DNA of 46,266 bases from a virus: IMG/VR virus record IMGVR_UViG_3300004807_000039, positions 1 through 46,266 of that record; one strand, 5' to 3'. Positions 8,092 through 36,988 of the stretch are shown here, piece by piece (the stretch's first letter is position 1; each line of letters opens with the position of its first letter). Below the pieces are notes generated by a model. The model ran no database searches. It worked only from the letters and a program-made list of their open reading frames with translations, and was not told the origin of the DNA. The position numbers were made by a program, and so were the translations under genes.

Positions 8092-8154
8092 GGTTTAAGA
8101 TTTAATCTCATTCACTAGATGAATGAATAAACAAACCACCTACTAGGAGCAGAT

Positions 8155-8406: not shown

Positions 8407-8458
8407 GTCAATCTGATGATGGGCTAATGCCCGAAACCTGAGAGATCAGGTCATTGAC
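8407..8458 (+). ncRNA. Hammerhead ribozyme 1 (type I)
   Basis: Stem I: GTCAAT (8407-8412) pairs with ATTGAC (8453-8458). The conserved core CTGATGA is at 8413-8419 and GAAA at 8433-8436. Stem II: GGGC/GCCC (8421-8424, 8429-8432) with loop TAAT. Stem III: CCTGA/TCAGG (8437-8441, 8446-8450) with a GAGA tetraloop. The predicted cut is after C8452 in GTC. One extra T (8420) lies between the core and stem II, which may lower activity. Stem I is the open helix, hence type I. It fills the gap between two genes and ends just before the next ribosome site. Confidence 0.85.
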
Positions 8459-8478
8459 AACACTGCTAGGAGAAACAA

Positions 8479-8667
8479 ATGGAATCAACATTGTTAAAGA
8501 AGTTAGCTAAAGGTGAGTTCTTCAAACTCAAAGGGTCTGAGACTGCTCCAGTATGGATGATTGACTATCGTGATGGTCATTTCATTCATGCCCACAAGTT
8601 TGATGATGTAAACCACACCAAAGTGTTTAAGCAAAACAAAGTAGTTTTCTTCGGCTTTACTTTCTAA
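8479..8667 (+). CDS. Small basic hypothetical protein after ribozyme 1
   Basis: 62 residues from ATG 8479. Its ribosome site TAGGAG (8467-8472) lies in the leader ACTGCTAGGAG directly downstream of the first hammerhead. The sequence (KGEFFKLKGSETAPVWMIDY) looks like a small beta-rich domain, unlike its acidic neighbours in being basic overall. I know no function. After ribozyme cleavage this gene would head an mRNA with a short 5'-OH leader of about 26 bases. Confidence 0.65.
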   Translation: MESTLLKKLAKGEFFKLKGSETAPVWMIDYRDGHFIHAHKFDDVNHTKVFKQNKVVFFGFTF

Positions 8668-8676
8668 GGGGGATTT

Positions 8677-8793
8677 ATGGGAACACTAGAGCAACGCTAC
8701 GCTATTTATCTCGCCTGTGCTGATGATGGCACTGGACATTCAATCACTGATGGCAAGCCACTGAAAACTTTTGAAGAGTGGTTGAATTCATAG
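8677..8793 (+). CDS. 38-residue conserved-looking phage microprotein
   Basis: A short frame from ATG 8677 with AAGGGGGA just upstream, nine bases after the preceding stop. It reads MGTLEQRYAIYLACADDGTG and continues through a KPLKTFEEWLNS end. I recall close relatives as tiny hypothetical proteins in environmental phages of Proteobacteria. Its stop TAG shares its last base with stem I of the second ribozyme. Probably a single small helical domain; function unknown. Confidence 0.6.
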   Translation: MGTLEQRYAIYLACADDGTGHSITDGKPLKTFEEWLNS

Positions 8794-8842
8794 TCAAACT
8801 GATGAGCCTTTAATAGGCGAAACCCAGTGATGGGTCTTTGAC
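8793..8842 (+). ncRNA. Hammerhead ribozyme 2 (type I, perfect core)
   Basis: All consensus parts are present. Stem I: GTCAAA (8793-8798) with TTTGAC (8837-8842). Core CTGATGA is at 8799-8805 and GAAA at 8819-8822. Stem II: GCCT/AGGC (8806-8809, 8815-8818) with loop TTAAT. Stem III: CCCA/TGGG (8823-8826, 8831-8834) closed by a GTGA (GNRA) tetraloop. The T8835-C8836 dinucleotide marks the predicted cut between 8836 and 8837. The open helix is stem I. The leader ACTGCTAGGAG of the next gene follows after two bases. Confidence 0.92.
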
Positions 8843-8861
8843 AAACTGCTAGGAGTTCAAA

Positions 8862-9224
8862 TTGGAAACACAAACTGTAAAGAAAACAATCGACTTATCC
8901 CAGTTTTATGGCACTGAGTCGTATCACCGCACTAACCTGTTTACCCCTAACCTTGTTCACACTGATGGGGTTCAATACTTTGCTGATCAAGGTGGTTGCT
9001 ACTGGTTCTTGGATATCGTTGCCAGTGAATACTATCCACTGTTAGCTAAAGAGCCACTGCTCTCCATCCAGTTAGCCGTTGAGGATGGGAAAGCAGATAT
9101 CTGCGTGGAAGACGGGGATTGCAACATCATCAAGCAAAAGCATATTGCCCTAACCGATTGCCCTGATGGGATGTATCGGTTCTTCCTGACTGACAATGTT
9201 CTGATGCTTACTTCGGAGTATTGA
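8862..9224 (+). CDS. DUF6876-type protein, TTG start, after ribozyme 2
   Basis: 120 residues starting with TTG at 8862, six bases after TAGGAG (8850-8855). No ATG with a better site exists nearby. The protein shows the pattern I associate with DUF6876: an N-terminal FYGTESYHR, then THTDGV-like VHTDGVQYFADQGGCYWFLDIVAS, a central strand pair rich in acidic residues, and a C-terminal FFLTDNVLMLTSEY. Family function is unknown; members occur in phages and plasmids. It is the second gene directly behind a self-cleaving ribozyme. Confidence 0.72.
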   Translation: METQTVKKTIDLSQFYGTESYHRTNLFTPNLVHTDGVQYFADQGGCYWFLDIVASEYYPLLAKEPLLSIQLAVEDGKADICVEDGDCNIIKQKHIALTDCPDGMYRFFLTDNVLMLTSEY

Positions 9225-9979: not shown

Positions 9980-10552
9980 ATGGGATGGACTGGGACACAA
10001 TGCTTTTTCAAAATCAGTCGCAAAGACTTTTTGATCAAAGAATTTACGCAAGAAAACGATACCCACAAATGGTGGCTAACCAATATCTCGATGCGTGGCA
10101 ACACCGCATATTGCATTAGTTGGCAAGAGGAGAAAGCCACTGGGATCAAACACCATGAGGGCATGGTTATCCTGACAGAGAAACGCAGAGAAGATCCTGA
10201 CTGGATCTATTACAAGAATATGGGGGAGACTGTATTGCCCTATTACTTTGATGCTCCCAAGAGCCTTATTACGACTCTTAACGCATTAGGTATGCCGTTC
10301 AATACAAGTGCTAAACAATGGCGAGAGCGATGCTTGGCAAATGCCAGTGTCAAGAAGCCAAAGTTGAAGTTTGGGGATGTTGTGAAGTTTGCCCATCCGA
10401 TGTCATTCTCATTTTCTACTGGGAGGGTTGAAGAGGACACCTTTACCTATGTTGAATACGGGACAAAGAAAAATGTATTCAAGACCAGTCAAGGGCATCT
10501 TTGCCGTATATCAAAGTTAGCCAATAAAGAATTTACAGTTCTATCAAACTGA
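9980..10552 (+). CDS. MGWT-type protein (resembles DUF6927)
   Basis: 190 residues from ATG 9980, directly after the preceding stop; an upstream in-frame start at 9908 would overlap that gene. The opening MGWTGTQCFFK is typical of a phage and bacterial family I associate with DUF6927. It is followed by NTAYCISWQEEK and MGETVLPYYFDAPKSLITTL blocks. The C-terminal 65 residues (LKFGDVVKFAHPMSFSF) look like a small beta-barrel. Function unknown. Its stop codon TGA (10550-10552) lies inside the CTGATGA core of the third ribozyme. Confidence 0.62.
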   Translation: MGWTGTQCFFKISRKDFLIKEFTQENDTHKWWLTNISMRGNTAYCISWQEEKATGIKHHEGMVILTEKRREDPDWIYYKNMGETVLPYYFDAPKSLITTLNALGMPFNTSAKQWRERCLANASVKKPKLKFGDVVKFAHPMSFSFSTGRVEEDTFTYVEYGTKKNVFKTSQGHLCRISKLANKEFTVLSN

Positions 10553-10642
10553 TGAGCCAAGAGTAATGGCGAAACAAGTAAGTATGAGACCGCAAAGTCG
10601 TATGACGAGACCGCAAATTACTTACTTGTCTTTGATTAACTG
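10536..10642 (+). ncRNA. Hammerhead ribozyme 3 (type I, long stem III)
   Basis: Stem I: ATCAAA (10543-10548) with TTTGAT (10631-10636), extended after a small internal loop by CAGTT/AACTG (10536-10540, 10638-10642). Core CTGATGA is at 10549-10555 and GAAA at 10571-10574. Stem II: GCCA/TGGC (10556-10559, 10567-10570). Stem III has ten pairs, CAAGTAAGTA (10575-10584) with TACTTACTTG (10619-10628), and a 34-base insertion with two copies of GAGACCGCAAA. T10629-C10630 gives the predicted cut after 10630. The first core bases overlap the stop codon of the upstream gene. Confidence 0.9.
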
Positions 10643-10656
10643 CTAGGAGAATTAAC

Positions 10657-11124
10657 ATGGGTTTAGATATGTATTTAACCGCTAAGAAATACCTTTGGTC
10701 TGATGCCGATAAGGAGTTATCTGCCAAGATCAATGAAGCCATTGGAGTTGAGCCTGACTTTGAGAAACGATTTAATGGTTCGAGTTTGGTTGCTAAAGAG
10801 ATATCACTGGATGCGATGTATTGGAGAAAAGCCAATGCCATTCATGGATGGTTCGTCAATGTTGTGCAAGACGGGGAGGATAACTGCCGAGAATATGAGG
10901 TAGATCGAGAACAGTTGGAGACACTGCGAGACTTGTGCAAAGACATCCTTGAGCATCCTGATGCTGAAAGGGAGACCGACTTAGAGCCGACTGAGGGATT
11001 CTTCTTTGGTTCTTACAAAAAAGACGAATGGTATTACGAAGACCTGAAGAACACTGTTGAGGGGTTGGATAAGGTTTTGGCATTACCTGACGAGTATTCA
11101 TTTAGCTATCAAGCCAGTTGGTAA
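10657..11124 (+). CDS. MGLDMYL-type hypothetical protein, after ribozyme 3
   Basis: 155 residues from ATG 10657, with TAGGAG (10644-10649) directly behind the third ribozyme. It starts MGLDMYLTAKKYLW and contains AMYWRKANAIHGWFVNVVQDG (about 50-70), a pattern seen in many phage and prophage hypothetical proteins. Then come an acidic helical region and a GFFFGSYKKDEWYYEDL block. No enzyme motif is known to me. It is the third gene in this operon that would head a ribozyme-generated mRNA. Confidence 0.68.
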   Translation: MGLDMYLTAKKYLWSDADKELSAKINEAIGVEPDFEKRFNGSSLVAKEISLDAMYWRKANAIHGWFVNVVQDGEDNCREYEVDREQLETLRDLCKDILEHPDAERETDLEPTEGFFFGSYKKDEWYYEDLKNTVEGLDKVLALPDEYSFSYQASW

Positions 11125-18974: not shown

Positions 18975-19055
18975 TGATCGAGGGCGATCAACGGAGGGCT
19001 TGCCATTATTAGAGCACTCATCAACTGCTAGGCCAATAGGGACTAGAAATGGCAA
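18975..19055. other. Two further hairpins upstream of the terminator
   Basis: TGATCG-AGGG-CGATCA (18975-18990) is a perfect six-pair hairpin. TTGCCATT (19000-19007) pairs with AATGGCAA (19048-19055) around 40 bases that contain CAACTGCTAGG, a copy of the shared leader core but here not in front of a gene. They extend the structured region toward the promoter-like site. Confidence 0.45.
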
Positions 19056-24822: not shown

Positions 24823-25164
24823 ATGAATACAGTAATTTTGCCCTGGCCTCCTAAAGAATTAAGCCCAAATTCCACATTACACTGGGCTAAGAAGGCTAAA
24901 TTTAAGAAGGCTTATCGTCATACTTGCTGGGCGTTGACACTAGAAGCCAAGCTCACAGCTGACGGATTAGGGAAAATCCCTATTCTGATTACCTTTTATC
25001 CCCCAGATAAACGCCATCGGGATGCAGATAACATGGTTGCCAGCATCAAAGCTGGATTGGATGGCGTAGCAGATGCCCTAAAGATAAACGATAGGCAGTT
25101 TATGCCTACGTTTACCTTTTCAGATGAGGTTAAGGGAATGGTTAAAGTCCAGCTGACAGCCTGA
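24823..25164 (+). CDS. rusA: RusA-like Holliday junction resolvase
   Basis: 113 residues, the usual length of RusA. Key pattern: LPWPPKELSPNST at the start, HRDADNMVASIKAGLDGVAD (65-84) with Asp67 and Asp69 as metal ligands and Lys76, and INDRQF (88-93). It cuts four-way junctions in branched phage DNA before packaging. It is the only rightward gene here and is divergent from the leftward early operon. Its last 23 bases overlap the 3' end of the giant gene on the other strand. No clear Shine-Dalgarno is seen. Confidence 0.88.
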   Translation: MNTVILPWPPKELSPNSTLHWAKKAKFKKAYRHTCWALTLEAKLTADGLGKIPILITFYPPDKRHRDADNMVASIKAGLDGVADALKINDRQFMPTFTFSDEVKGMVKVQLTA

Positions 25165-28100
25165 ACTTAATCGTCTGTTCCAGAATTTCTTCTTTTTTGT
25201 TCTTATAGAAGTTAATCTGTTTGCGTTTTTCGTCTGGAGACATCTGGGATGCTGGTAGATCCTCAATCCTACGAATCTGGGCATTGATATCAATTAGAGC
25301 TTTACCAGCTTGACCAGTAAATCCAGAGGCTTGTATTTCCCCTTTATGGTCGTTAAACCATTGTTGAGCTTCTTCTGGGTGTCCTTTTTTCATTAAATCT
25401 TTGAATGTGCCCATAGCAGTGTCAGAACGGGTCTTCAGGTCGTAGAAGAGGTCTTCCCTGCCTCGTGGTACTTCAGGAGCTACAAACGAGCCATAGAGGG
25501 GATTATTGCGTTCCTCTGGGCTTGCTTTGTGACCAGAGAATAGGTTAGATCCCCACATCGCAGCAGCAGCCACAGAACCGCCTAATCCACGCATGACGTG
25601 ATCAGCTTGGATTGGGCTTAACATCCGATGCTCTTGGGAGCCTAGACCGCTGGCATAGCTAATCCACTTACCTAATTCAGAGGTGCTGCCGTTGTATTGA
25701 CGGAAGGCAGCCAAGTCTTTCATGGATTGTGGAGTGACGTTACCGCCAGTGTAGAAGTCATGGTTTAGGGCTATCTCAGCAAATGGCTTGATGGCAGTAG
25801 GCACTGGACCCGATCCAAGTGGGCCAAGTAATGCATCCACTGCACCTTCCTTGAGAGCTTTACGCAATCTAGCATTGTCGATGGCATCTTTAGTACCCTC
25901 TTTAGTGATCTTGTTATAGAGCATCTCAGGGATAGACTTAAAGAAATAGCTGGCAGAAGTATGCATTGGGATGAGCAAGGTATGGTCATAGCCAATTGTC
26001 TTCATCATAGAACGAGGGATAACAAAGTTACGCATCTTTGTCTGGTCATCCATCTTTTTGTATTCGTCATCATCACCAATCGCAAAGGCATATAACAGGC
26101 AAGTAGAAGCCAATAGACCGCTGGCAATAGCCAATCTGGTCATTGCTTGCTGACGATCTAATCCTCTTAGACCACCGCTAATACTGGTAATTTTTTGACC
26201 TGTGAGCCTTTCTACACCACCAGCAATAGGCTCTGCCAATGCTTGGGTCAGCACATCAATCTGCTGGGCATAGGCGTTCATAAACGCAATAGTCCTGTTG
26301 AGGAATTGAGCTGTTCTGCCCATGCCACGTTTGTCAAAGTCAATGACGTTAGTCGCTGCCAAAATTGCTTTACGCTGGTCTCCACCGCTTGGGAAACCGC
26401 CAGTCTCTTTCATTACACGCACATAGACGGCTCTACGCTGGGCAAAGTCTGAGGCATCGGCAATCTGGTCAAGGATGCTGGTCACTCTGGCAAAGGCTGA
26501 TTTATTCAATAAACCAATTTCTTGCTTGTATTGATGCTCTGCTGTTCTAGCACCAGAGTGATAACCGCCAATACCGTAAGACTTGAGCAACTCAACCACT
26601 TCATCTTTTTGAGTCAAGCCTTTAGCAAATGAACCAAACACACCGCCAAACAATGCTAATGGGTTCTTCACGCCAGTCACGATGGCAGCTGTTGGAGCAT
26701 CCATGAAAAGCTGTTTAAGCTGGAATACACCAGAGAAAGTAATCGATCTACGCAAACCGTTAGCAAAGTAAGCCATGATCTCGTTCATTGGAATCTGGAT
26801 ATTCTCAATACCAATCACGGACTGGGCAATCAATGGGTCAGCAATTTGGATGTTGACCTTTCTGCCACTAATCAAAATCTTAACGATGCCACGAGCTGCA
26901 TCTTCTTTAGGGAAGACTTTGAGCTTGCCGTTCTCATTACGAGTGCCATACTCCTGGGCAATACGGTTAGCTGCATAGTTCTTAATGGCGTTACGAGTAG
27001 TCACCATGACGTTGTGAAGCATATTGTCTACGATGTCATCGATGTCTAAATCAACCTTACCTTCTTTGAAACGATGCTCTCTGGCTACGTTCTTGACACC
27101 TTTAGAGCTATAGATTGGGGTATGAACGTCTGTTTGATCATCCATAATCCGCTGCCAAGGCACATAATCTTCGATGTTACGCAAGGTATCAGCACGTTGT
27201 TTGCTGATCATGCGAGCTTGTTCCATCATGTCAATCATGTTCTTGTTAACAGCGTTCCAGTTATCCATCATTTTTCTAAGTTCTGGATACTGTTTGTCTA
27301 GCTTGCTAAAGTCATCGATAGCTTCATCGGACATATTGACTTTTTGCAAGGCAATACCGATGTTTTTAAAGTCTTGTTCGGCATCAGCAATCTTGTCCAA
27401 AAGCAATAGCTGACGGTCTGGTGAAGTACTTGGATCCATCTGCTCTGTTCTTAGCATCTCCAATTCGCCTTCACGCTTGAGGTATTCATCCACAATAGAA
27501 CGTGAACGCTTGGCTTCAAAGTAGGCTTGGATGACGTTGGCAGCACGTTGAACGCCAATTTCTTTCTCTAACTGGTGCTTCAAGGTCAGAATATTAGCCA
27601 TCGAGAACTTGTCTTGAACGGCATGGAACATCTGATTGGTGTTATCAAAGACTAACTTACCCAGCATGATGACCTGAGTACCAATACGAGTAGCCTTCAG
27701 AGCTTGGTTCATAGCCACAGAAGCCACAGCACGACCTTCGCTGTCCTCTAACATACGACCATAACGGGTTGCATCGGCAGCTGTCAAACCAGCTGTAAAG
27801 TCTGTTGTCTTGATACGAGTAGCCAACACTGCACGATCTAAGTTGCCAACCATGTTGTTAACAGCAAGGCGTGGTGACTCGACCATCTTCGCACCAATAT
27901 TCTTGGCTTCTTGAGCACCGCCCAAGAACTTATCCATCACACCGTTAGAAGTATGGATAGGAGCATCATTGCGATTGTGCTTGGCTAGTAACTCATCAGT
28001 CTTCTCAACGCTGTAGAGGAACTTAGTCTTATATGGTCCTGAACTAATCAGGTCTACCAACATGGTCTTATGAGTTCTTGGTGTCTCGCCTTTGATTAAA

Positions 28101-31100
28101 TCATTGAAGGCTTTGTAAACTGAATGGGTATTGTTAAAACCAAACAGCTTCTTCATTGCCTCAAATACTTGACGGATGGCGTTAACATAACGACCCCAAG
28201 GAGTTCCCATACGAGTGCCAAATAGCTTTTCAGCGTTGACAGCCCAGAACTCTGATGGATTGATGTATTGGTACATATCCTGTGAAGGCAACAACTCCAT
28301 CGCCTTTTCAAAGTTCTTCTCGCTTGGATCGTTGACGTAATCGATTACCGCCATGAAATACTTTTGAGACACTTCATCAGTGTTCTTCTTGATGGCTTTC
28401 TCAAGGGCTGCTCTCCAAGATTCAACAATTGCTTGCTGGGTCTGTGGATCCATCATCTGCTCAAGTGTATGCATCAACTCATGTCGAATAGTGCCAGGAT
28501 TAACAGCTCCTGATTCCTTGTATAGCCTGACGATACGCTCTAGATTATTAAATACGCCAGCAGCTGTGTAGGCTGCGTTCTGTGGGGCTTGCTTAACGGA
28601 TAAGCGTAGACCAGTCAGGATAGCTGGGGATTGTCTGTAGATGTATTGGATAACGTCTAAGACATCCTTGCTGATATTGCCTTTGTTGTATTCGTTAAGG
28701 GCACGAGCCATAAACGCTTCAGGCGTAATCTTCTTCTCAGCAGTCATCTTCTTGTCGGCTGCCAACTCTTTAGCAAGCTGATCAAGGTAAGTTAACTCAC
28801 GCTGAGTATTGATTGTGGTCTCGCCTTTGATGACTTCACGCTTAATCTTGGTAATGCCACGCCTTACACGAGCCAACTCATCTGTTTTAGCTTTGTGAAT
28901 CTGGGCAATTTGCTCTCTTAGATTTTTAGGAATCACGCTTGGATTTAGCTTTGGAATATGAGCGTAATTGGTTAAAGTAAATCCATCTTCATGGGCTTTA
29001 CGGTCATATTCAATAGCTTTAGCAGGACTTAAAATACCGTTCTCTGATTCAGCACCGTTGTAATAATCAATAGCAACTGGCAAGTATTTAAAGCCTAGCT
29101 CTTTTGCTGCCATGATTCGATGGTTTCCTTCATTTACATAAGGAGTGCCATCTTGGTAAACATTGATATATGGGGTGTAATGGGTTTTACCATCTTTCTC
29201 AAATGGCAAATGGTTTTTCTCGCCCATGTAATCCATTAAGGATTTCAAATCTGCAACTCTTACATTGCGTTGCTCATCATTTATACCTTGCATTTTTGCA
29301 AGAACATCAACTGGAACAAGCATTTTGCGAACTGGTGAGTTTGTTACACCCTCTTTTGTTCTGAAATAAGCTGTTGCAGAACCAAATCTATATGGAACGC
29401 CATATGATTTTCTGCCATCTTCCCTAGATAATTGACGTTTGTGTTCTAGCCAATTTCCACCTGGGTTATCTGTAATCATATAAACAGGAGGAACTTTTGG
29501 CTGATACATCACGCTTGGAGTAACAGTCGCTTTGGGTGGAGCAAACATCTCTCTGGCTTTGTCTCTAGGACTAGAGGCAATCAGAGTGTCACCACGCTCA
29601 TTCAGGATAAAGTCAATCGCTTTGGCAGCCTGTTGCTCATTACCTCTGGCATACATAGTGTTGCCAGACTTATAGAAGTCACTAGTAATATCAGTCAAAC
29701 CTCGGTCTAGGAAGTATGTACCGCCTTCTTTCTTAGAGCTTGGGACATTGAATTGATACTGGTTGCCATAGCTAGACTTGGTAATCCGCAATACATTATC
29801 GGCAGAAGTAATTACACCGTTTACTTCATTCATAAACCGCATAGCATCGGCAGCTGACCGCAGACGGATAGGAGCTTCACGAGCAGCCTTTTCAAAGTCA
29901 TAAGTGCGTGGCATGAGAATACCCTGACCAGTAGTGCCGTCAGCTTTGGTATAGCTCATAATCTGACCCTGATTCTTTACCGCATCAGAAGCAAATCCAG
30001 CCAAAATATTGCCTGTAACCATCCAGCGTTTCTCACGCCTGACGTTAGAACCTTTGTCAAACAAGTCAGTTAACGGAATGTTCTCTGCTTGCTGGGTATC
30101 TGGGTTGTACCAGTTAATGTAATTCTCTTGGTTTAATTGATAAGTGCTGCCAATCTGGGAGAAGTTAATCGTAATGGCTTTTGCATCACCGTTAGCCAAA
30201 GCAATATGCATTTTCCAGTCTGAGCCAGCAACAGGGTTAGCAGTCTTCTTTTTATTTTCTAAATCAGTCACAACACCATAGACAAAGATGCCTTGGTTAT
30301 TCTTAATAGAAATTGGCTGACCTACTGCATAGTTTTCCAAAATAGACTTGATGTGCTGATACTGAAGATTTAATTGACCCTTGGCAGCATCAATACGGAC
30401 TTCATCTGCACCTTTTTCTTTCAGGTTCTCAATTTGTTTTCTACCGTATTCGGCTGCACGTTCTCTTACACCATCCATGAGCTTGTCAACTTTTTGGCGT
30501 TGTGTTCCACCTTCCAAGTTCTCACTCACCATTTCCTGAACTTCTTGTTTGGTGTATGGCTTAACAGTACGTTTAACGTCTACCTTTTCCATGTAAGCTG
30601 GTTGAGCAAACAAGGATGGATCACCTTTATCTGGGGTAATAGGCACGGCTGATAGAGTCTCAGCATCAAGGTCAACAGCTTTAGCTTCGAGCTTATTGGT
30701 TCCCATGCTGTTCTCACGCTCAACTAAATCGTTGTAACGATCAATCAGATCCTTATAAATTTCTTCCTGTTCTTTAATTGGCAGGATAGGAATGTAGCCA
30801 GTCAATCTACGGATATCATCTTCTTTAGCATCGGTTGGGTCTTCTATAAGATCTACAACCTTTTTACCGCCAATAGCTTCGTGAACCTCTGGGTTATCAC
30901 GCAAGTATTCCTGTGCAATCTGACCACCGTAGTCATTCATAAAGTCCACAGCACCTTCGGCTGTAACGGCAGACTTACGGGAAGCTGTCGTATTGGCGTT
31001 CAAGGAAGCCATCTTCTTGAGCAATACCGCAGCTGGCCTCATCTCCGCTGGGATGTCAGCCATCATTTGTGAGTAAGCTGGAGCTACAACTTGACCAGTA

Positions 31101-34100
31101 CGATGCACACGACCAAGCATCTGCATATGGGTATCAATGTTCTTTTCAGGCTGAACAATGATCATGTGGCGTTTGCGTTGATCTTTAAAGCTAGAGGATG
31201 CGTGTAATGACAAGCCAGTAGAACCAGCTTGGTTCAGGATAATGACATCGGCTGTGCCATTGTTAAATGCACGAACAGCACCAACACGCTGTTTAATATT
31301 GGCAGAACGAGAAGTAAGGATTGGTGTGCCACTCTCATAGTTAAGGGTCACTGTACGACCAGTAATCTCTTCTGTCTTATACCCAGCTTTACGCAACTCA
31401 TTGTGCATATAGTCAATTGGGGAGATTGGAGCTGAACCAAAACCAGCATTTTCAATAAATGTCTTAATTTGGTTATAGGCTGCCAAACGCTCTGGACCAA
31501 GATCTTGATCGGTCATACGGTATTGTTGTACGCCATTCGGTCCTTTGATCTTGAGCATCCGTTGCTTTTCCAAGTAACGCAGATACAGATCTTTAAAGGT
31601 CAGATTGACTGGATCACCTACGTTGATGCCCATTTCATCAGCATAACTTTGTAAGAATGAACCCATCGTATTGGAAACGGTCATTACGACCTTCTCGCCA
31701 TTCTTTAGGCTTTCCACAGCGTGTTTGATAGAGTCCTGGGCTTTTAATGACAAAAGCATCTGGTCAATCAAGTTATGCATGATGGCACCAAAGTTTGCAC
31801 TTTGGATCTGGGTCTTCTCACCTTCGATACTTGCTCTACCGCCAGACTTGTCAAACTCCTTTTGCATCTCTTTGACAACGGCTTCTTTAGAACGGGAGAA
31901 CGCCAAGATGTCACGCATCGAGGTAGCCATGTTCTCAGCTGTCTGCTTATCGACCTTTGTCTCTTGGGTCTGATAACTTACACCAGCAAAGGTTCTTTCC
32001 CTGCGAATATATTGACCGACTTTGGTCAGCATATTGGCAACAATCTGTTGCATTGGAATACCGCCTAGCTTGATGGCATCGGCTAATTCATTGATGTTAT
32101 CAACCGCTAACTTCATGTCTGTGCTGGAATACAAGTCCATCACATCAGGGCGTTTAGCGTAGGTAGCTGACGAGAAGAACGTACCAAAGGCGTTATCTAC
32201 CAAGTCACGGACAAAGGCTGCACGACCAGTGGCTAGGCTCTTGCCTTCCTTTTGGGATTCTCTTTGTTCTTTGCTACGGGCTTGGGTTTCACCAGCACCA
32301 CCAGCGTTATGACTTTCGTCAAAAATCATGTAGTTGCCAAGACCAAACGATTTAATAAAGCGTTGGCGTTCTGTTTCGTTTTTCTTAACAGCTTGCAACT
32401 GGCTATAGGTAGTAAAGATTACCTTGTAATCGCCAAGGCTTTCTTTCTCTTGCATACCCTTCATCATCTCGTCTAATGCTTTGCCAGTCTTAGGAGCTTT
32501 GAGGGTAAGGTTGTTTTCTGTTACTTCGCCATTAACAGTGCGGAGCAAGGTATAAGGAATAGATTCACTAGAGTTAGTGATAAAGATGCGTGGTTTGGCT
32601 GTATCTAGTCCTAACTCTTTGGTCATACCGATATCATCCAAGTCACGGATCATGTCGGAGTAAAGGTTTGGCTTCTCTGTAACAAAGATAGGTACTTTGT
32701 CATTCTCGATGGCGTACTTGATCATCGCAGCAACAACACGACCTTTACCAATACCAGTCTGGTCTCCAATAATGAAGCCTTTGCCAGCTTCAGCATTACG
32801 GATAGCCAAAACCAAGGCATCAATTTGTTCAGCGGAGAACTTCTCACGCAGGGTCTCTGGATCCATGTGCAGGGCTTCTGCTACATATTCATCCACATCA
32901 CCGACTTCACGCTCTACGGCTGAAATAGAGTTATCAATGGATTCTGCCATTGCTTTAGGAACAAGCGTTCCTACAGAAGCAGCTTGTGAATGAGGCTCGT
33001 AACCTACTTGATGACCAGTTTCTGTTTCCTGACCTCTACGGTCTTTTAATCCAGACTCGACTCGTGTACCTGAGACAACGCTAGGTCCACCCACTGGGCT
33101 AGGCTCGTTTCCTGCAATGCCTTTTCTGCCACTGGGTTGCTGCTCTCCACCTTCGCTGGGAACGGGTCCTCGATTGATGCCACGTTCAGGTTCGTTAGCA
33201 AGTCTAGGTTGTCCTGCACTAACACCTGCCCCAGCTGGTTCGGGTTGTCCACGTTTGCTAGGCTCATTCTCAGACACGCCTCGTCTGCCGCCTTCTGTGG
33301 GTCGCTCTCCTTCAGCACCAGCTTCACGACCTTGTCCGCTAGGGCGTTCACCCACTGGTTCTGGTTTAGGCTCCCCTGCGGTACGCTCACTGACGTTAGT
33401 TCTGGTGGGGCTGACATTTTCTCTGGAAACCACGCTAGGTTCATTTAACTTCTCCTTGAGTTCTTCGTATGAGGTAATTTGCTGTGGGAGTTCCGCAGCT
33501 GGTAAGGCTCTTTGTGACTGACCTTTTCCATCAATAACAATGACATCTACAGGGTAAGAAGCTCCCTGTTTACTGTACATATCCCCAGCTACGGAGAAAT
33601 GGTCAACTACGTTGTAATCTTTGTAGAGGTTGTAATAAAACTCTCGTTTTGCTTTTTGACGATATCCTTCACGCCTTGCATCTTCGCCTTCAGCACGAAC
33701 ACCGCCTAGGATCAATACGGCTCTGCCATTAGCTGGCATATCATTTAAAGCTTTGTATGAAATAGCATGATCTATTTCTCTAGTGGTTTTTCCATAAACA
33801 TGAAATTCTTCGCCAATAGAACCAAAAGGAGGGTTGGCAATGACTACATCGACAGGATTTATGGATTTAAGAACTGCATTTTCATTAGATACTTTTGCAC
33901 CTGGAAGCACCTTTTTGAGCATTTCATAACGGCTAGTATTGAGTTCGTTCACCGTAACATTGTTAGGGTTAGAAGCTATCAACAACATTCCGTTACCGCC
34001 AGTAGGCTCGTAAACCGTTGTTTTATCAGTAATTCCTGCTAGTTGCGATGCAACATAAGCCAATGGAGCTGGGGTGGAATAAGCCTGTTCTCTAACACTG

Positions 34101-36988
34101 GTAGAACTTCTGACAGCCAAATTAGGCTGACGGTTGTATAGATTTACCAAGCCATCATAGATTTCGCTTGGCTTTCTGTTCTTATGGGCAATGTTCTGGG
34201 CAGCCAATACGACACCCACTTCCACAGCCTCATCAGCTTGTTTGGCAGCCATCGTGCCAGCTTCAATCTTTTGACCAGTCAAATCGGCAATGAATCTACG
34301 GGCTTCGTTGATATCTTTAAAGCCTAGACCACCCATGAAATGCTTAGAAATAGCTTGTGCAATATGGAACTTGCCATCTTCTGTATTGAGGTCAAGAGTA
34401 CCTTTTGGCTCTTCAGCCTTTTCTAGCTCATCCAAAGATTCAACTTCAACCACTTCTTTCTTGGAGCTGGCTTCTGGATAGTTAGCAGACATACCAATAT
34501 AAGCACCTTGTAGGTGATTAAGATTGATTTTGTCAGCAACGTCTTTACCAAACTTCTCAAGAATCATGTCCCTGACAAACTTGGCAGCCTGTTTGAACTT
34601 GTGATAGCCCATACGGAACGCAGCATCCATTAACCTAGTAAGGATAGGCATCAAGCGTTGCTCATCCTCTGGCATCATATTCATACGGGTTGGCTTAGTA
34701 GCCAGCCATGCGAGATCTGCTAATGCATCCTCTAGGTCTTGTTTGGCTTGCGCTTCAGGAGATAGATTCTCTGGGGCAACAGTAGGCGCTGCTATAGGAG
34801 CTTCTGCACCAGTTATTTGAGGAATAAACTTGGCAAATAAGGCTTTTTGGTCTTCAGCACTCATGCTAGGAGCCATTGGCTTCTTAGCTTCACGAATGTT
34901 ATTAAGCAACTGATTACCTTTTGGTAATAGCTCTAACTTGCCATTTGGATTCTCTTTAACCAGTTCATTTGCTTTCAAAAGCTTAATAGCATCTTCAGAA
35001 GCAATAGCTGGATTAGGTTTTTCATTGTTCATTGCATAGATAATTCCTTGATGGAATTCGTGCAATGGAACTTCTTCTGCATTTACACCACGCAACTCTT
35101 TTTCTGTTGCTTTCTCTTGAGGTGTCTTTGCCCTTTGTGCAGCTTGGCGTTCTTGGTTTATTTGAGCTTGAGTTTTTTCCTCAGTTTCTGGTGCAACTTC
35201 TTCAGCTGCTGCTTCAGTTTCTGCAACAGGCTTTTCTTCAGTGGGAACTTCGGCAGCTGGTTCGGCTGGCTTTTCTTCACTGGGCTTGATTTCTTCGCTG
35301 GGCTTTTCTTCACTGACGGATTGCTCAATGTAGGGCTTGGCTTTTTCATGTTCGGAGTTCGCATAATCAATCGCTTTCTGTTTTGATTCTTCGGTATTAC
35401 CAAAATTTCTAGCCGTTACAAGCTGGTTAGAATCTTTATCAACTAAAACGGCAGTCCAGCCGTTATCGTTTTTGACAACACGATACTCAGTGTTATCTCC
35501 CATATCCAATGGAGCAATTACTTCATTTGGTTTAATTTCTGGAGTTTCTAATATTTTTGGTGTTTCTAATGGAATACCAGTTTCAAGTGCCTTTTGTTTT
35601 ACGGCAGCAAAAGTTTCTTGTGCAGTTTTCCCAATAGGTACTTCTAATTCTCTAGCAATAGGATTTACATTACGAGCTGTAAGTGGTTGATCGCCTTTGT
35701 CAATTGCTTCAATTGCATACTTTGTAACGTATTGAGCTTCTCTATTAACTGGCTCTTCAACAGTAGTTTTAGGAGCACCAACGACTGGTGGAGCAGCAGG
35801 AGCCTCTAAATCTGCTTCATTTACCAAGCCAGCTGCAACGGTTTCTGGTGTTGCCACTTTAGGAGCTGGAGGTGCTGGTGGAACTACAGGAGGAGCTTTA
35901 GCTTGTTCAATTTCAGTTCTTTTACCTTGATAGGTAGCAGCCACTTCAGCTGGAGCACCAGCCAATTCACCGATAGCCTCTTCAAACATAGCACGAGGAT
36001 TAACTGGTTGATTACTTGCAACAGAACCTAAACCTTCACCAGCTGCACCAAACGCAGCTTGCTTTGGTATTTCTTTGCCTACATCTTTAACAGTTTCTTT
36101 CCAAGCTTTCTTGGTGGTGTCTTCAAACAGATTCTTAGCAAGGGTGCTGGCAGACTTCAAAGAAGCAGCATCAAACATACCAATAACGGCAGACTTAACC
36201 ATCGCTTTATTGTTTGCTTCTTCGTGTGTGTAACCTTGTTCTCTGAGGTCAACATACTCTTGACCGTATTCCATCAGTGCAGATGAACCACCGCCAGCCA
36301 CCATTGCAGCTGATGGACCAGCCTTCATACCAACTTTGGCTGCAACAGCCATAGCAATAGATTGTGGAAGACTGCTAAGACCTACGTTAATAGCGTATTC
36401 AGGGAAATCAGTAATGTTCTTTAGGTATTCTTTACCAACTAAACCTGTTTGTTCCCATTTACCAGCATTTTGAAACTCTGGTTTTTGCTCTAAAGCATCA
36501 ATCTTTTTAGCTAATGGATCTTTTCCATATTTAGCTTCAATGGCTTTTACATCTGCTTTTGTATTTTCTAATTTGCCTAAAAGTTGGTTAATTTTTGCAT
36601 CATCTTGTGCAAAGAATTTTTTCTCTTCTGGATTAGCTTTTTCGTAATTATTACCAAACTTTTCTTTACGAAGTTCTTGCAATGGCAATAAGTCACTAAG
36701 TTGATATGCAGGATATATATCCCCCATAGACTTAATACCTTTAGCCAAAGAACCGACTGCTGTGCTAGGCTCTTCCACCATCTTAGCCCCTGGCATGATT
36801 GCATCAATAGGGCTAAAAATAGATTTTTGTAATACGTCAGCAACTTTGGTCGATGGTGGCTCAGTCCCAACTGTTGGTTGGGGGGCGTTAGGCATAATTT
36901 GAGTTTTAATGACATTTGATATCTCGTCAGAAGACATCGTGTCAGGAAAATCAACTACGCCAACATACGGTATGTTGACTGATGGCAT
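25142..36988 (-). CDS. Giant polyvalent protein: methyltransferase, strawberry-notch helicase, ParB/Srx-like and zincin-like motifs
   Basis: 3948 residues, about a quarter of the window. N-terminus: SVNIPYVGVVDFPDTMSSDE, a start I associate with phage virion-associated proteins, then Ala/Pro/Glu-rich linkers (about 370-620). Methyltransferase: EPTGGNG (994-1000, SAM motif) and NPPF (1052-1055, catalytic motif of N6-adenine type). Disordered linker about 1185-1330. Helicase: GDQTGIGKG (1408-1416), DESH (1557-1560), GRVHRTGQ (1959-1966), as in strawberry-notch-type SF2 enzymes. A NEGNHRIMAAKELG segment (2619) is ParB/Srx-like. HELMH (2836-2840) is an HExxH zinc-protease-type motif. The C-terminal 1000 residues are helical with LPD-type features. 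Such polyvalent proteins, like P1 DarB, are packaged and injected to defend phage DNA; that role is inferred here. Only 5 bases separate it from the preceding virion gene. Confidence 0.85.
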   Translation of the reverse strand: MPSVNIPYVGVVDFPDTMSSDEISNVIKTQIMPNAPQPTVGTEPPSTKVADVLQKSIFSPIDAIMPGAKMVEEPSTAVGSLAKGIKSMGDIYPAYQLSDLLPLQELRKEKFGNNYEKANPEEKKFFAQDDAKINQLLGKLENTKADVKAIEAKYGKDPLAKKIDALEQKPEFQNAGKWEQTGLVGKEYLKNITDFPEYAINVGLSSLPQSIAMAVAAKVGMKAGPSAAMVAGGGSSALMEYGQEYVDLREQGYTHEEANNKAMVKSAVIGMFDAASLKSASTLAKNLFEDTTKKAWKETVKDVGKEIPKQAAFGAAGEGLGSVASNQPVNPRAMFEEAIGELAGAPAEVAATYQGKRTEIEQAKAPPVVPPAPPAPKVATPETVAAGLVNEADLEAPAAPPVVGAPKTTVEEPVNREAQYVTKYAIEAIDKGDQPLTARNVNPIARELEVPIGKTAQETFAAVKQKALETGIPLETPKILETPEIKPNEVIAPLDMGDNTEYRVVKNDNGWTAVLVDKDSNQLVTARNFGNTEESKQKAIDYANSEHEKAKPYIEQSVSEEKPSEEIKPSEEKPAEPAAEVPTEEKPVAETEAAAEEVAPETEEKTQAQINQERQAAQRAKTPQEKATEKELRGVNAEEVPLHEFHQGIIYAMNNEKPNPAIASEDAIKLLKANELVKENPNGKLELLPKGNQLLNNIREAKKPMAPSMSAEDQKALFAKFIPQITGAEAPIAAPTVAPENLSPEAQAKQDLEDALADLAWLATKPTRMNMMPEDEQRLMPILTRLMDAAFRMGYHKFKQAAKFVRDMILEKFGKDVADKINLNHLQGAYIGMSANYPEASSKKEVVEVESLDELEKAEEPKGTLDLNTEDGKFHIAQAISKHFMGGLGFKDINEARRFIADLTGQKIEAGTMAAKQADEAVEVGVVLAAQNIAHKNRKPSEIYDGLVNLYNRQPNLAVRSSTSVREQAYSTPAPLAYVASQLAGITDKTTVYEPTGGNGMLLIASNPNNVTVNELNTSRYEMLKKVLPGAKVSNENAVLKSINPVDVVIANPPFGSIGEEFHVYGKTTREIDHAISYKALNDMPANGRAVLILGGVRAEGEDARREGYRQKAKREFYYNLYKDYNVVDHFSVAGDMYSKQGASYPVDVIVIDGKGQSQRALPAAELPQQITSYEELKEKLNEPSVVSRENVSPTRTNVSERTAGEPKPEPVGERPSGQGREAGAEGERPTEGGRRGVSENEPSKRGQPEPAGAGVSAGQPRLANEPERGINRGPVPSEGGEQQPSGRKGIAGNEPSPVGGPSVVSGTRVESGLKDRRGQETETGHQVGYEPHSQAASVGTLVPKAMAESIDNSISAVEREVGDVDEYVAEALHMDPETLREKFSAEQIDALVLAIRNAEAGKGFIIGDQTGIGKGRVVAAMIKYAIENDKVPIFVTEKPNLYSDMIRDLDDIGMTKELGLDTAKPRIFITNSSESIPYTLLRTVNGEVTENNLTLKAPKTGKALDEMMKGMQEKESLGDYKVIFTTYSQLQAVKKNETERQRFIKSFGLGNYMIFDESHNAGGAGETQARSKEQRESQKEGKSLATGRAAFVRDLVDNAFGTFFSSATYAKRPDVMDLYSSTDMKLAVDNINELADAIKLGGIPMQQIVANMLTKVGQYIRRERTFAGVSYQTQETKVDKQTAENMATSMRDILAFSRSKEAVVKEMQKEFDKSGGRASIEGEKTQIQSANFGAIMHNLIDQMLLSLKAQDSIKHAVESLKNGEKVVMTVSNTMGSFLQSYADEMGINVGDPVNLTFKDLYLRYLEKQRMLKIKGPNGVQQYRMTDQDLGPERLAAYNQIKTFIENAGFGSAPISPIDYMHNELRKAGYKTEEITGRTVTLNYESGTPILTSRSANIKQRVGAVRAFNNGTADVIILNQAGSTGLSLHASSSFKDQRKRHMIIVQPEKNIDTHMQMLGRVHRTGQVVAPAYSQMMADIPAEMRPAAVLLKKMASLNANTTASRKSAVTAEGAVDFMNDYGGQIAQEYLRDNPEVHEAIGGKKVVDLIEDPTDAKEDDIRRLTGYIPILPIKEQEEIYKDLIDRYNDLVERENSMGTNKLEAKAVDLDAETLSAVPITPDKGDPSLFAQPAYMEKVDVKRTVKPYTKQEVQEMVSENLEGGTQRQKVDKLMDGVRERAAEYGRKQIENLKEKGADEVRIDAAKGQLNLQYQHIKSILENYAVGQPISIKNNQGIFVYGVVTDLENKKKTANPVAGSDWKMHIALANGDAKAITINFSQIGSTYQLNQENYINWYNPDTQQAENIPLTDLFDKGSNVRREKRWMVTGNILAGFASDAVKNQGQIMSYTKADGTTGQGILMPRTYDFEKAAREAPIRLRSAADAMRFMNEVNGVITSADNVLRITKSSYGNQYQFNVPSSKKEGGTYFLDRGLTDITSDFYKSGNTMYARGNEQQAAKAIDFILNERGDTLIASSPRDKAREMFAPPKATVTPSVMYQPKVPPVYMITDNPGGNWLEHKRQLSREDGRKSYGVPYRFGSATAYFRTKEGVTNSPVRKMLVPVDVLAKMQGINDEQRNVRVADLKSLMDYMGEKNHLPFEKDGKTHYTPYINVYQDGTPYVNEGNHRIMAAKELGFKYLPVAIDYYNGAESENGILSPAKAIEYDRKAHEDGFTLTNYAHIPKLNPSVIPKNLREQIAQIHKAKTDELARVRRGITKIKREVIKGETTINTQRELTYLDQLAKELAADKKMTAEKKITPEAFMARALNEYNKGNISKDVLDVIQYIYRQSPAILTGLRLSVKQAPQNAAYTAAGVFNNLERIVRLYKESGAVNPGTIRHELMHTLEQMMDPQTQQAIVESWRAALEKAIKKNTDEVSQKYFMAVIDYVNDPSEKNFEKAMELLPSQDMYQYINPSEFWAVNAEKLFGTRMGTPWGRYVNAIRQVFEAMKKLFGFNNTHSVYKAFNDLIKGETPRTHKTMLVDLISSGPYKTKFLYSVEKTDELLAKHNRNDAPIHTSNGVMDKFLGGAQEAKNIGAKMVESPRLAVNNMVGNLDRAVLATRIKTTDFTAGLTAADATRYGRMLEDSEGRAVASVAMNQALKATRIGTQVIMLGKLVFDNTNQMFHAVQDKFSMANILTLKHQLEKEIGVQRAANVIQAYFEAKRSRSIVDEYLKREGELEMLRTEQMDPSTSPDRQLLLLDKIADAEQDFKNIGIALQKVNMSDEAIDDFSKLDKQYPELRKMMDNWNAVNKNMIDMMEQARMISKQRADTLRNIEDYVPWQRIMDDQTDVHTPIYSSKGVKNVAREHRFKEGKVDLDIDDIVDNMLHNVMVTTRNAIKNYAANRIAQEYGTRNENGKLKVFPKEDAARGIVKILISGRKVNIQIADPLIAQSVIGIENIQIPMNEIMAYFANGLRRSITFSGVFQLKQLFMDAPTAAIVTGVKNPLALFGGVFGSFAKGLTQKDEVVELLKSYGIGGYHSGARTAEHQYKQEIGLLNKSAFARVTSILDQIADASDFAQRRAVYVRVMKETGGFPSGGDQRKAILAATNVIDFDKRGMGRTAQFLNRTIAFMNAYAQQIDVLTQALAEPIAGGVERLTGQKITSISGGLRGLDRQQAMTRLAIASGLLASTCLLYAFAIGDDDEYKKMDDQTKMRNFVIPRSMMKTIGYDHTLLIPMHTSASYFFKSIPEMLYNKITKEGTKDAIDNARLRKALKEGAVDALLGPLGSGPVPTAIKPFAEIALNHDFYTGGNVTPQSMKDLAAFRQYNGSTSELGKWISYASGLGSQEHRMLSPIQADHVMRGLGGSVAAAAMWGSNLFSGHKASPEERNNPLYGSFVAPEVPRGREDLFYDLKTRSDTAMGTFKDLMKKGHPEEAQQWFNDHKGEIQASGFTGQAGKALIDINAQIRRIEDLPASQMSPDEKRKQINFYKNKKEEILEQTIKFRLSAGL
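33046..33444 (-). CDS. Possible overprinted gene inside the giant gene
   Basis: A second frame on the same strand, 132 residues from ATG 33444. It is preceded by a perfect AAGGAG (33457-33452) with 7-base spacing. It lies exactly over the disordered Pro/Gly/Glu linker of the giant protein, where selection on the main frame is weakest. The product looks like a normal soluble protein (WVNALADKVVKLVLKESDPQ, helical, balanced composition). Caution: the stretch is richer in GC than its surroundings, and other frames are open there too, so chance cannot be excluded. Confidence 0.3.
   Translation of the reverse strand: MNLAWFPEKMSAPPELTSVSVPQGSLNQNQWVNALADKVVKLVLKESDPQKAADEACLRMSLANVDNPNQLGQVLVQDNLDLLTNLNVASIEDPFPAKVESSNPVAEKALQETSLAQWVDLALSQVHESSLD

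Follow-up and report, generated by a model that had tools for sequence, protein, structure and literature searches.

From the comparative analysis of a 46,266-base phage record and its relatives, we propose that the 11-mer ACTGCTAGGAG, which lies within the ribosome binding sites (RBSs) of several phage genes, is likely the box targeted by a small antisense RNA that the phage encodes and that acts in trans. Since the leader is common to these genes and an exposed loop of the predicted RNA is exactly complementary to it, the translation of all leader genes is probably under the control of a single small RNA. The leader is retained behind unrelated upstream elements, namely hammerhead ribozymes, a second structured RNA (motif X) and promoters. 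All of the evidence is comparative and comes from metagenomic contigs, among which related sequences are not independent. The record (IMG/VR IMGVR_UViG_3300004807_000039, positions 1 to 46,266; hereafter the window, meaning this whole stretch) is that of a phage, with terminase, portal, primase, helicase, ParB-like, Erf-like and endolysin proteins; its terminase is up to 57% identical to those of phage 023Pt_psg01 and Pelagibacter phage HTVC027P. It also encodes, at 25142-36988 on the minus strand, a large polyvalent phage protein of 3,948 aa with Strawberry-notch-type helicase domains (PF13871, PF13872) and LPD38.

A shared leader in the ribosome binding sites of phage genes

The exact 11-mer occurs at 8462-8472, 8845-8855 and 10639-10649 on the plus strand and at 18098-18088 on the minus strand, the four positions named in the original prediction, and nowhere else in the record; by simple arithmetic, about 0.02 copies of a random 11-mer are expected on the two strands of 46,266 bases. 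A few other 11-mers also occur four times, so the copy number by itself is unremarkable; what is special is the position. The four copies form the RBSs of the gene at 8479-8667, the DUF6876 gene at 8862-9224, the gene for the MGLDMYL protein at 10657-11124, and the ParB-like gene at 18080-17268 on the minus strand, the last of which has no ribozyme and, in relatives, a -10-like element upstream. The two predicted variants are likewise present, ACTGCTAGGAC at 24752-24742 (minus strand) before the first leftward gene (24735-24514) and CCTACTAGGAG at 8139-8149 (plus strand) before gene 8155, and relatives carry an intact leader before the apparent counterpart of this first rightward gene. When about 55 gene starts of the window were inspected, ACTGC preceded the Shine-Dalgarno core in the five leader genes only, and the remaining starts had ordinary AGGA/GGAG sites without ACTGC; on this ground we rejected the leader as a genome-wide RBS consensus.

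The site before the MGLDMYL gene was located in relatives through the protein and is hence unbiased. Relatives with at least ~55% protein identity mostly retain CTGCTAGGAG there, and the most distant have plain RBSs. Neither outcome named in advance as telling against the prediction, a randomly spread 11-mer or relatives reduced to the AGGAG part, was observed; what relatives retain is (A)CTGCTAGGAG. From the variants ACTCTGCTAGGAG, CCTGCTAGGAG and TTGCTAGGAG the fixed core can be placed at about (C)TGCTAGGAG, and CTCTGCTAGG and TTTGCTAGG are further variants of the box.

Across the loci examined, the distinct leader copies comprise 77 behind a hammerhead, 46 behind motif X and 78 with neither element upstream. 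One class in this last group lies just behind -10-like or TTGACA/-10 promoter elements, assigned by eye, often with a small 5' hairpin. Some lie within the 3' end of an upstream reading frame, where a number of leaders show no visible 5'-end maker, and one class has no gene downstream at all.

A candidate small RNA complementary to the leader

The gene-less leader copies proved to be antisense to a small transcription unit, which consists of TTGACA, a TATATT/TATACT -10 element, a predicted RNA of 110-140 nt with a 5' hairpin and middle hairpins, and an intrinsic terminator. In the window, the key to this was an antisense copy of the leader core, CTGCTAGG, at 19025-19032 on the plus strand, a site absent from the original prediction. 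The candidate RNA lies on the minus strand at 19072-18935 (its start estimated from the -10 element), behind a promoter at 19109-19079 (TTGACA at 19109-19104, TATACT at 19084-19079) and ending in an intrinsic terminator with its stem at 18970-18943. Its anti-leader seed, CCTAGCAGTT at 19032-19023 (minus strand), is the complement of AACTGCTAGG and places CUAGCA in a predicted 6-nt hairpin loop. Directly 3' of the terminator, at 18893-18883 on the minus strand, stands a decayed sense copy of the leader, ACTGCTAGCCG, whose counterpart is intact in L006 (plus strand, 9423) and other records; such a copy could act as a sponge or head another transcript.

A promoter-only profile identified 23 loci, and CCTAGCAG was found downstream in 23/23, although the small RNAs are homologous and these loci are thus not independent. 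The pattern of promoter, spacer and CCTAGCAG was recovered in 29 of the 33 whole leader-bearing phage records, with 0/33 for the reversed control; of the four unmatched records, one is a 9-kb fragment and two appear to hold an antisense copy in a similar arrangement. Counted across records, CTGCTAGG occurs about six times per record versus about once for its reversed control. The 18 small RNAs that we aligned are 47-98% identical in pairs (47-68% between the window and the others), and compensatory changes are seen in 13 of the 20 predicted pairs. Apart from CCTAGCAG, no stretch of this alignment has eight successive invariant columns, and none of 100,000 column shuffles reached such a run. 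Most predicted folds hold the seed in a 6-nt loop, C[CUAGCA]G, which is the exact complement of the leader; the seed is less exposed in the predicted folds of L031 and L223. Watson-Crick runs between the small RNA and the leaders of its own phage measure 9-11 in the window and 8-14 elsewhere. When about 55 gene starts of the window are ranked by duplex energy with the seed, all five leader genes come within the top six. Taken by itself, duplex energy is modest: some shuffled seeds equal or surpass the best target, and the fifth best is only near the extreme of the shuffles (~1/200).

The candidate thus carries by sequence a promoter and intrinsic terminator of its own, and by prediction a conserved, accessible seed complementary to the target RBSs, as expected of a trans-acting antisense small RNA. 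No Rfam family matched it. RF02932 (Betaproteobacteria-1 RNA) follows the small RNA directly, on the same strand, in L054 (986-1100), L189 and L195 and in records G010, G013, G022, G023 and G029; it has no match in the window. In 13 loci (L182, L187, L195, L196, L198, L223, L240, L243, L249-L251, L254 and L038), an unrelated hairpin, UUUAC[CUAGCA]GUAAA, carries this loop too; it stands immediately ahead of a terminator that closes another gene at its 3' end and is possibly a second antisense source.

It had been argued at the outset that conservation upstream of the Shine-Dalgarno core implies a second role for the leader, such as binding a regulator. A small RNA gene with a conserved complement of the leader supports this argument, and the regulator would then be a phage-encoded antisense RNA. 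We consider it unlikely that the leader is simply the efficient 5'-proximal translation initiation sequence of this group, retained for loading ribosomes onto the short 5' untranslated regions that ribozymes or promoters make, with the small RNA match being secondary or acting elsewhere. The Shine-Dalgarno core is indeed part of the leader, a start codon comes after it in almost every ribozyme and motif X case, and predicted mRNA 5' ends are close by. However, ACTGCT is not complementary to the usual 3' end of 16S rRNA, other genes of the phage do without the leader, and the conserved anti-leader loop would be left unexplained. That the leader is instead the site of a phage or host RNA-binding protein, a translational repressor of the RegA or Csr type, is very unlikely in our judgment: an exact box of 10-11 nt over the Shine-Dalgarno sequence is typical of such sites, and a protein would equally be a regulator as originally proposed, but no such protein was seen among the window proteins searched (a non-exhaustive set), and the phage has an RNA gene whose predicted loop is the exact complement.

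Hammerhead ribozymes upstream of the leader

The first three leader copies each stand behind a type I hammerhead on the plus strand and start 8-9 nt past its predicted cleavage site. Ribozyme 1 (8407-8458) has its CTGATGA core at 8413-8419, predicted cleavage between 8452 and 8453, and one extra U before stem II. Ribozyme 2 (8793-8842) has its core at 8799-8805 and predicted cleavage between 8836 and 8837. Ribozyme 3 (10543-10636) has its core at 10549-10555, with the stop codon of the upstream frame inside it, predicted cleavage between 10630 and 10631, and a long stem III. This stem, here and in L007, L011 and L170, contains two copies of GAGACCGCAAA (GAGTCCGCAAA in relatives). All three show the CUGANGA ... 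GAAA ... UH core and three helices with stem I open, and it is on the core and helices that the assignment rests, since no window hammerhead reached the gathering score of the Rfam hammerhead models (the top match, HH9, had 21.4 bits against 52), a score that is no defining feature of the fold and comes from models poorly suited to these short variants.

Scanning IMG/VR for the hammerhead core together with the leader yielded a set of 56 contigs, biased by that very choice, in which two or three copies per contig were frequent. Within leader-containing loci, 71 of the 74 distinct hammerheads match the leader at 10 or 11 of 11 positions, including 17/17 whose non-CTGATGA cores were invisible to the first pattern. 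A scan for the core alone, in newly fetched loci, returned 171 distinct hammerheads, and only one of them is followed by the leader; outside the group, 0/157 distinct hammerheads have it, the best match being 8/11. The leader as a general rule for phage hammerheads was rejected on these counts. Hammerheads between phage genes are common, and each phage group has its own following sequence. The proposed link between ribozymes and RBSs holds only within this freshwater phage group; type I hammerheads of other phages carry other leaders.

Many type I hammerheads occur in other groups (L073, L078, L088, L138, L175 and others), in several of which the hammerhead copies have a group-specific following sequence in common, such as TATAACAGGC in L138 and ATAGGAGA in L088; no clear antisense RNA against such leaders was seen in the fragments examined. 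A hammerhead-like element at L035:5900-6011 (plus strand) has a CCGATGA core, a mutated form of CTGATGA, with an intact leader behind it. L044, a 196-kb record, was rejected as a carrier, its match not folding as a hammerhead. The pattern of hammerhead plus leader had 0 matches in genome_contigs, and a host or prophage origin was rejected on that basis.

Motif X and exchange of the upstream element

Motif X is a structured RNA of ~57 nt that is unrelated to the hammerhead. In L006, L192 and L230 it stands in place of hammerhead 2 before the same gene (8862-9224 in the window), and from the leader onward these records are 96-97% identical to the window. The MGLDMYL gene in relatives is likewise preceded either by a hammerhead or by motif X, which takes the place of ribozyme 3 in many of them; both elements end at the leader. 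Carriers include L006, L017 (e.g., L017:525-610), L021, L028, L053, L069, L233-L254 and others. Further contigs with motif X were detected by a pattern that did not include the leader, and a small number of these have other leaders (L015, L054, L183, L184, L221).

An alignment of 39 sequences supports hairpin H1 of motif X, with changes on both sides counted 13, 10 and 20 times at three pairs, and a helix GAUUGYC/GRCAAUC, with 13 such changes at one pair. In addition, the 5' GAGUG pairs with a CAUUC that lies between the two strands of this helix (94% paired versus a shuffle maximum of 88%). Folded alone, some members nest the GAGUG/CAUUC helix around H1, so that the third helix would be a pseudoknot. 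Searched in seven loci at E<=3, no Rfam covariance model matched motif X convincingly. We regard motif X as a strong candidate for a new self-cleaving ribozyme or RNA processing element, its exchange with hammerheads being what points to self-cleavage. A third structured element directly before the leader, "motif Y", consists of a hairpin AAGACC..GGTCTT followed by GGC..GCC and was seen at L032:8600-8710 (plus strand) and, on the minus strand, at L054 4410-4506 and L188 5270-5368.

An exchange placed so exactly upstream of the leader, with ~97% identity downstream, in a phage that encodes an Erf-like annealing protein, might mean that the leader marks the border of a mobile cassette of ribozyme and leader, or a recombination point, and is shared by copying and not by function. 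This we judge highly improbable, as the ribozyme stems differ widely while the leader is fixed, and the leader is also found behind promoters and inside reading frames. Scarcely credible is the original idea that ACTGC belongs to the ribozyme through pairing with the 5' flank of stem I: CAGTT can indeed pair with AACTG to extend stem I in ribozyme 3, but this is no general feature, since AACTGC pairs with the 5' flank over at least 5 bp in 7 of 71 leader-bearing hammerheads (7.4 expected from shuffles), the distance between leader and stem I varies from -2 to 6 nt, and the leader persists unchanged where another RNA or a promoter replaces the ribozyme.

Discussion

Comparison of sequences shows the leader, the ribozyme folds, the exchange with motif X, and the small RNA gene with its conserved complement. 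In the antisense model that we favor, hammerhead self-cleavage, motif X or, directly, a promoter would generate the mRNA 5' end near the box. Once transcribed, the small RNA would present CUAGCA in its hairpin loop, where pairing would begin and then lengthen to 9-11 bp in this phage and 8-14 bp in its relatives. Where CCUAGCAG pairs with CUGCUAGG, the duplex would cover the AGG of the Shine-Dalgarno sequence, which makes repression the natural outcome, and the translation of the whole set may thereby be blocked at once. We infer both that such pairing takes place in vivo and why the box would be coupled to ribozymes: the cut would free each gene from the upstream reading frame and leave the box near a fresh 5' end, after which the translation of each gene would depend only on the box. 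The nature of the targets points to a joint switch for several early or replication genes. A broader proposal is that this is an RNA-only regulon, in which the small RNA with the CUAGCA loop controls a box at ribozyme-made 5' ends and motif X (two helices and a pseudoknot) is a new class of self-cleaving ribozyme replacing the hammerhead gene by gene; this we put forward tentatively, as possible more than probable.

The early region of T7 has RNase III processing sites between the genes of its polycistronic mRNA. Cleavage between the genes of a polycistronic early mRNA would be common to both phages, except that a host nuclease cuts in T7 and the RNA is predicted to cut itself here. Type I hammerheads of (pro)phage genomes are clustered and flank individual phage genes, and Perreault et al. 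(2011; PMC3088659) proposed that they process long phage transcripts to yield shorter mRNAs. The hammerheads described here have the same core, the same three stems and the same clustering beside single phage genes; unlike those, each comes with one invariant leader, which stays in place where another RNA is substituted for the ribozyme. A search of the text of that article (PMC3088659) gave no mention of ribosome or Shine. In our literature search, whose coverage was incomplete and is no proof of absence, we came across no description of a common target box following phage ribozymes.

In the c4 system, pairing involves the RBS region of the target, and c4 is made from the same transcript as that target. 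The candidate small RNA has instead a separate promoter and terminator on the minus strand, with three of its predicted targets on the plus strand. It resembles c4 of P1/P7, sar of P22 and OOP of lambda as a phage-encoded RNA predicted to control phage mRNA by base pairing; those RNAs have one main target and are made nearby, whereas the RNA here has a promoter of its own and matches a standard box carried by at least five genes, which lie on both strands. The c4 RNA of phages P1/P7 is an antisense repressor, and the phage antisense RNAs known mostly have one phage target (reviewed in PMC12197685). As far as the citation of Franch et al. (1999) in PMC4485353 conveys, antisense RNAs that initiate pairing from a loop have a YUNR U-turn; the small hairpin loop predicted here would start pairing in a similar manner, and its CUAG fits the YUNR of fast antisense RNAs. 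Unlike the systems so cited, the target here is a linear RBS box common to many mRNAs and not a loop in one mRNA.

No biological function has been settled for phage hammerheads, known since 2011, and here they have a precise partner, a fixed target box with a matching candidate small RNA. The exact exchange of hammerhead and motif X is a natural experiment. In essence, the arrangement offers a testable reason for the cutting of phage mRNAs, which would yield separate messages that one small RNA can switch together.
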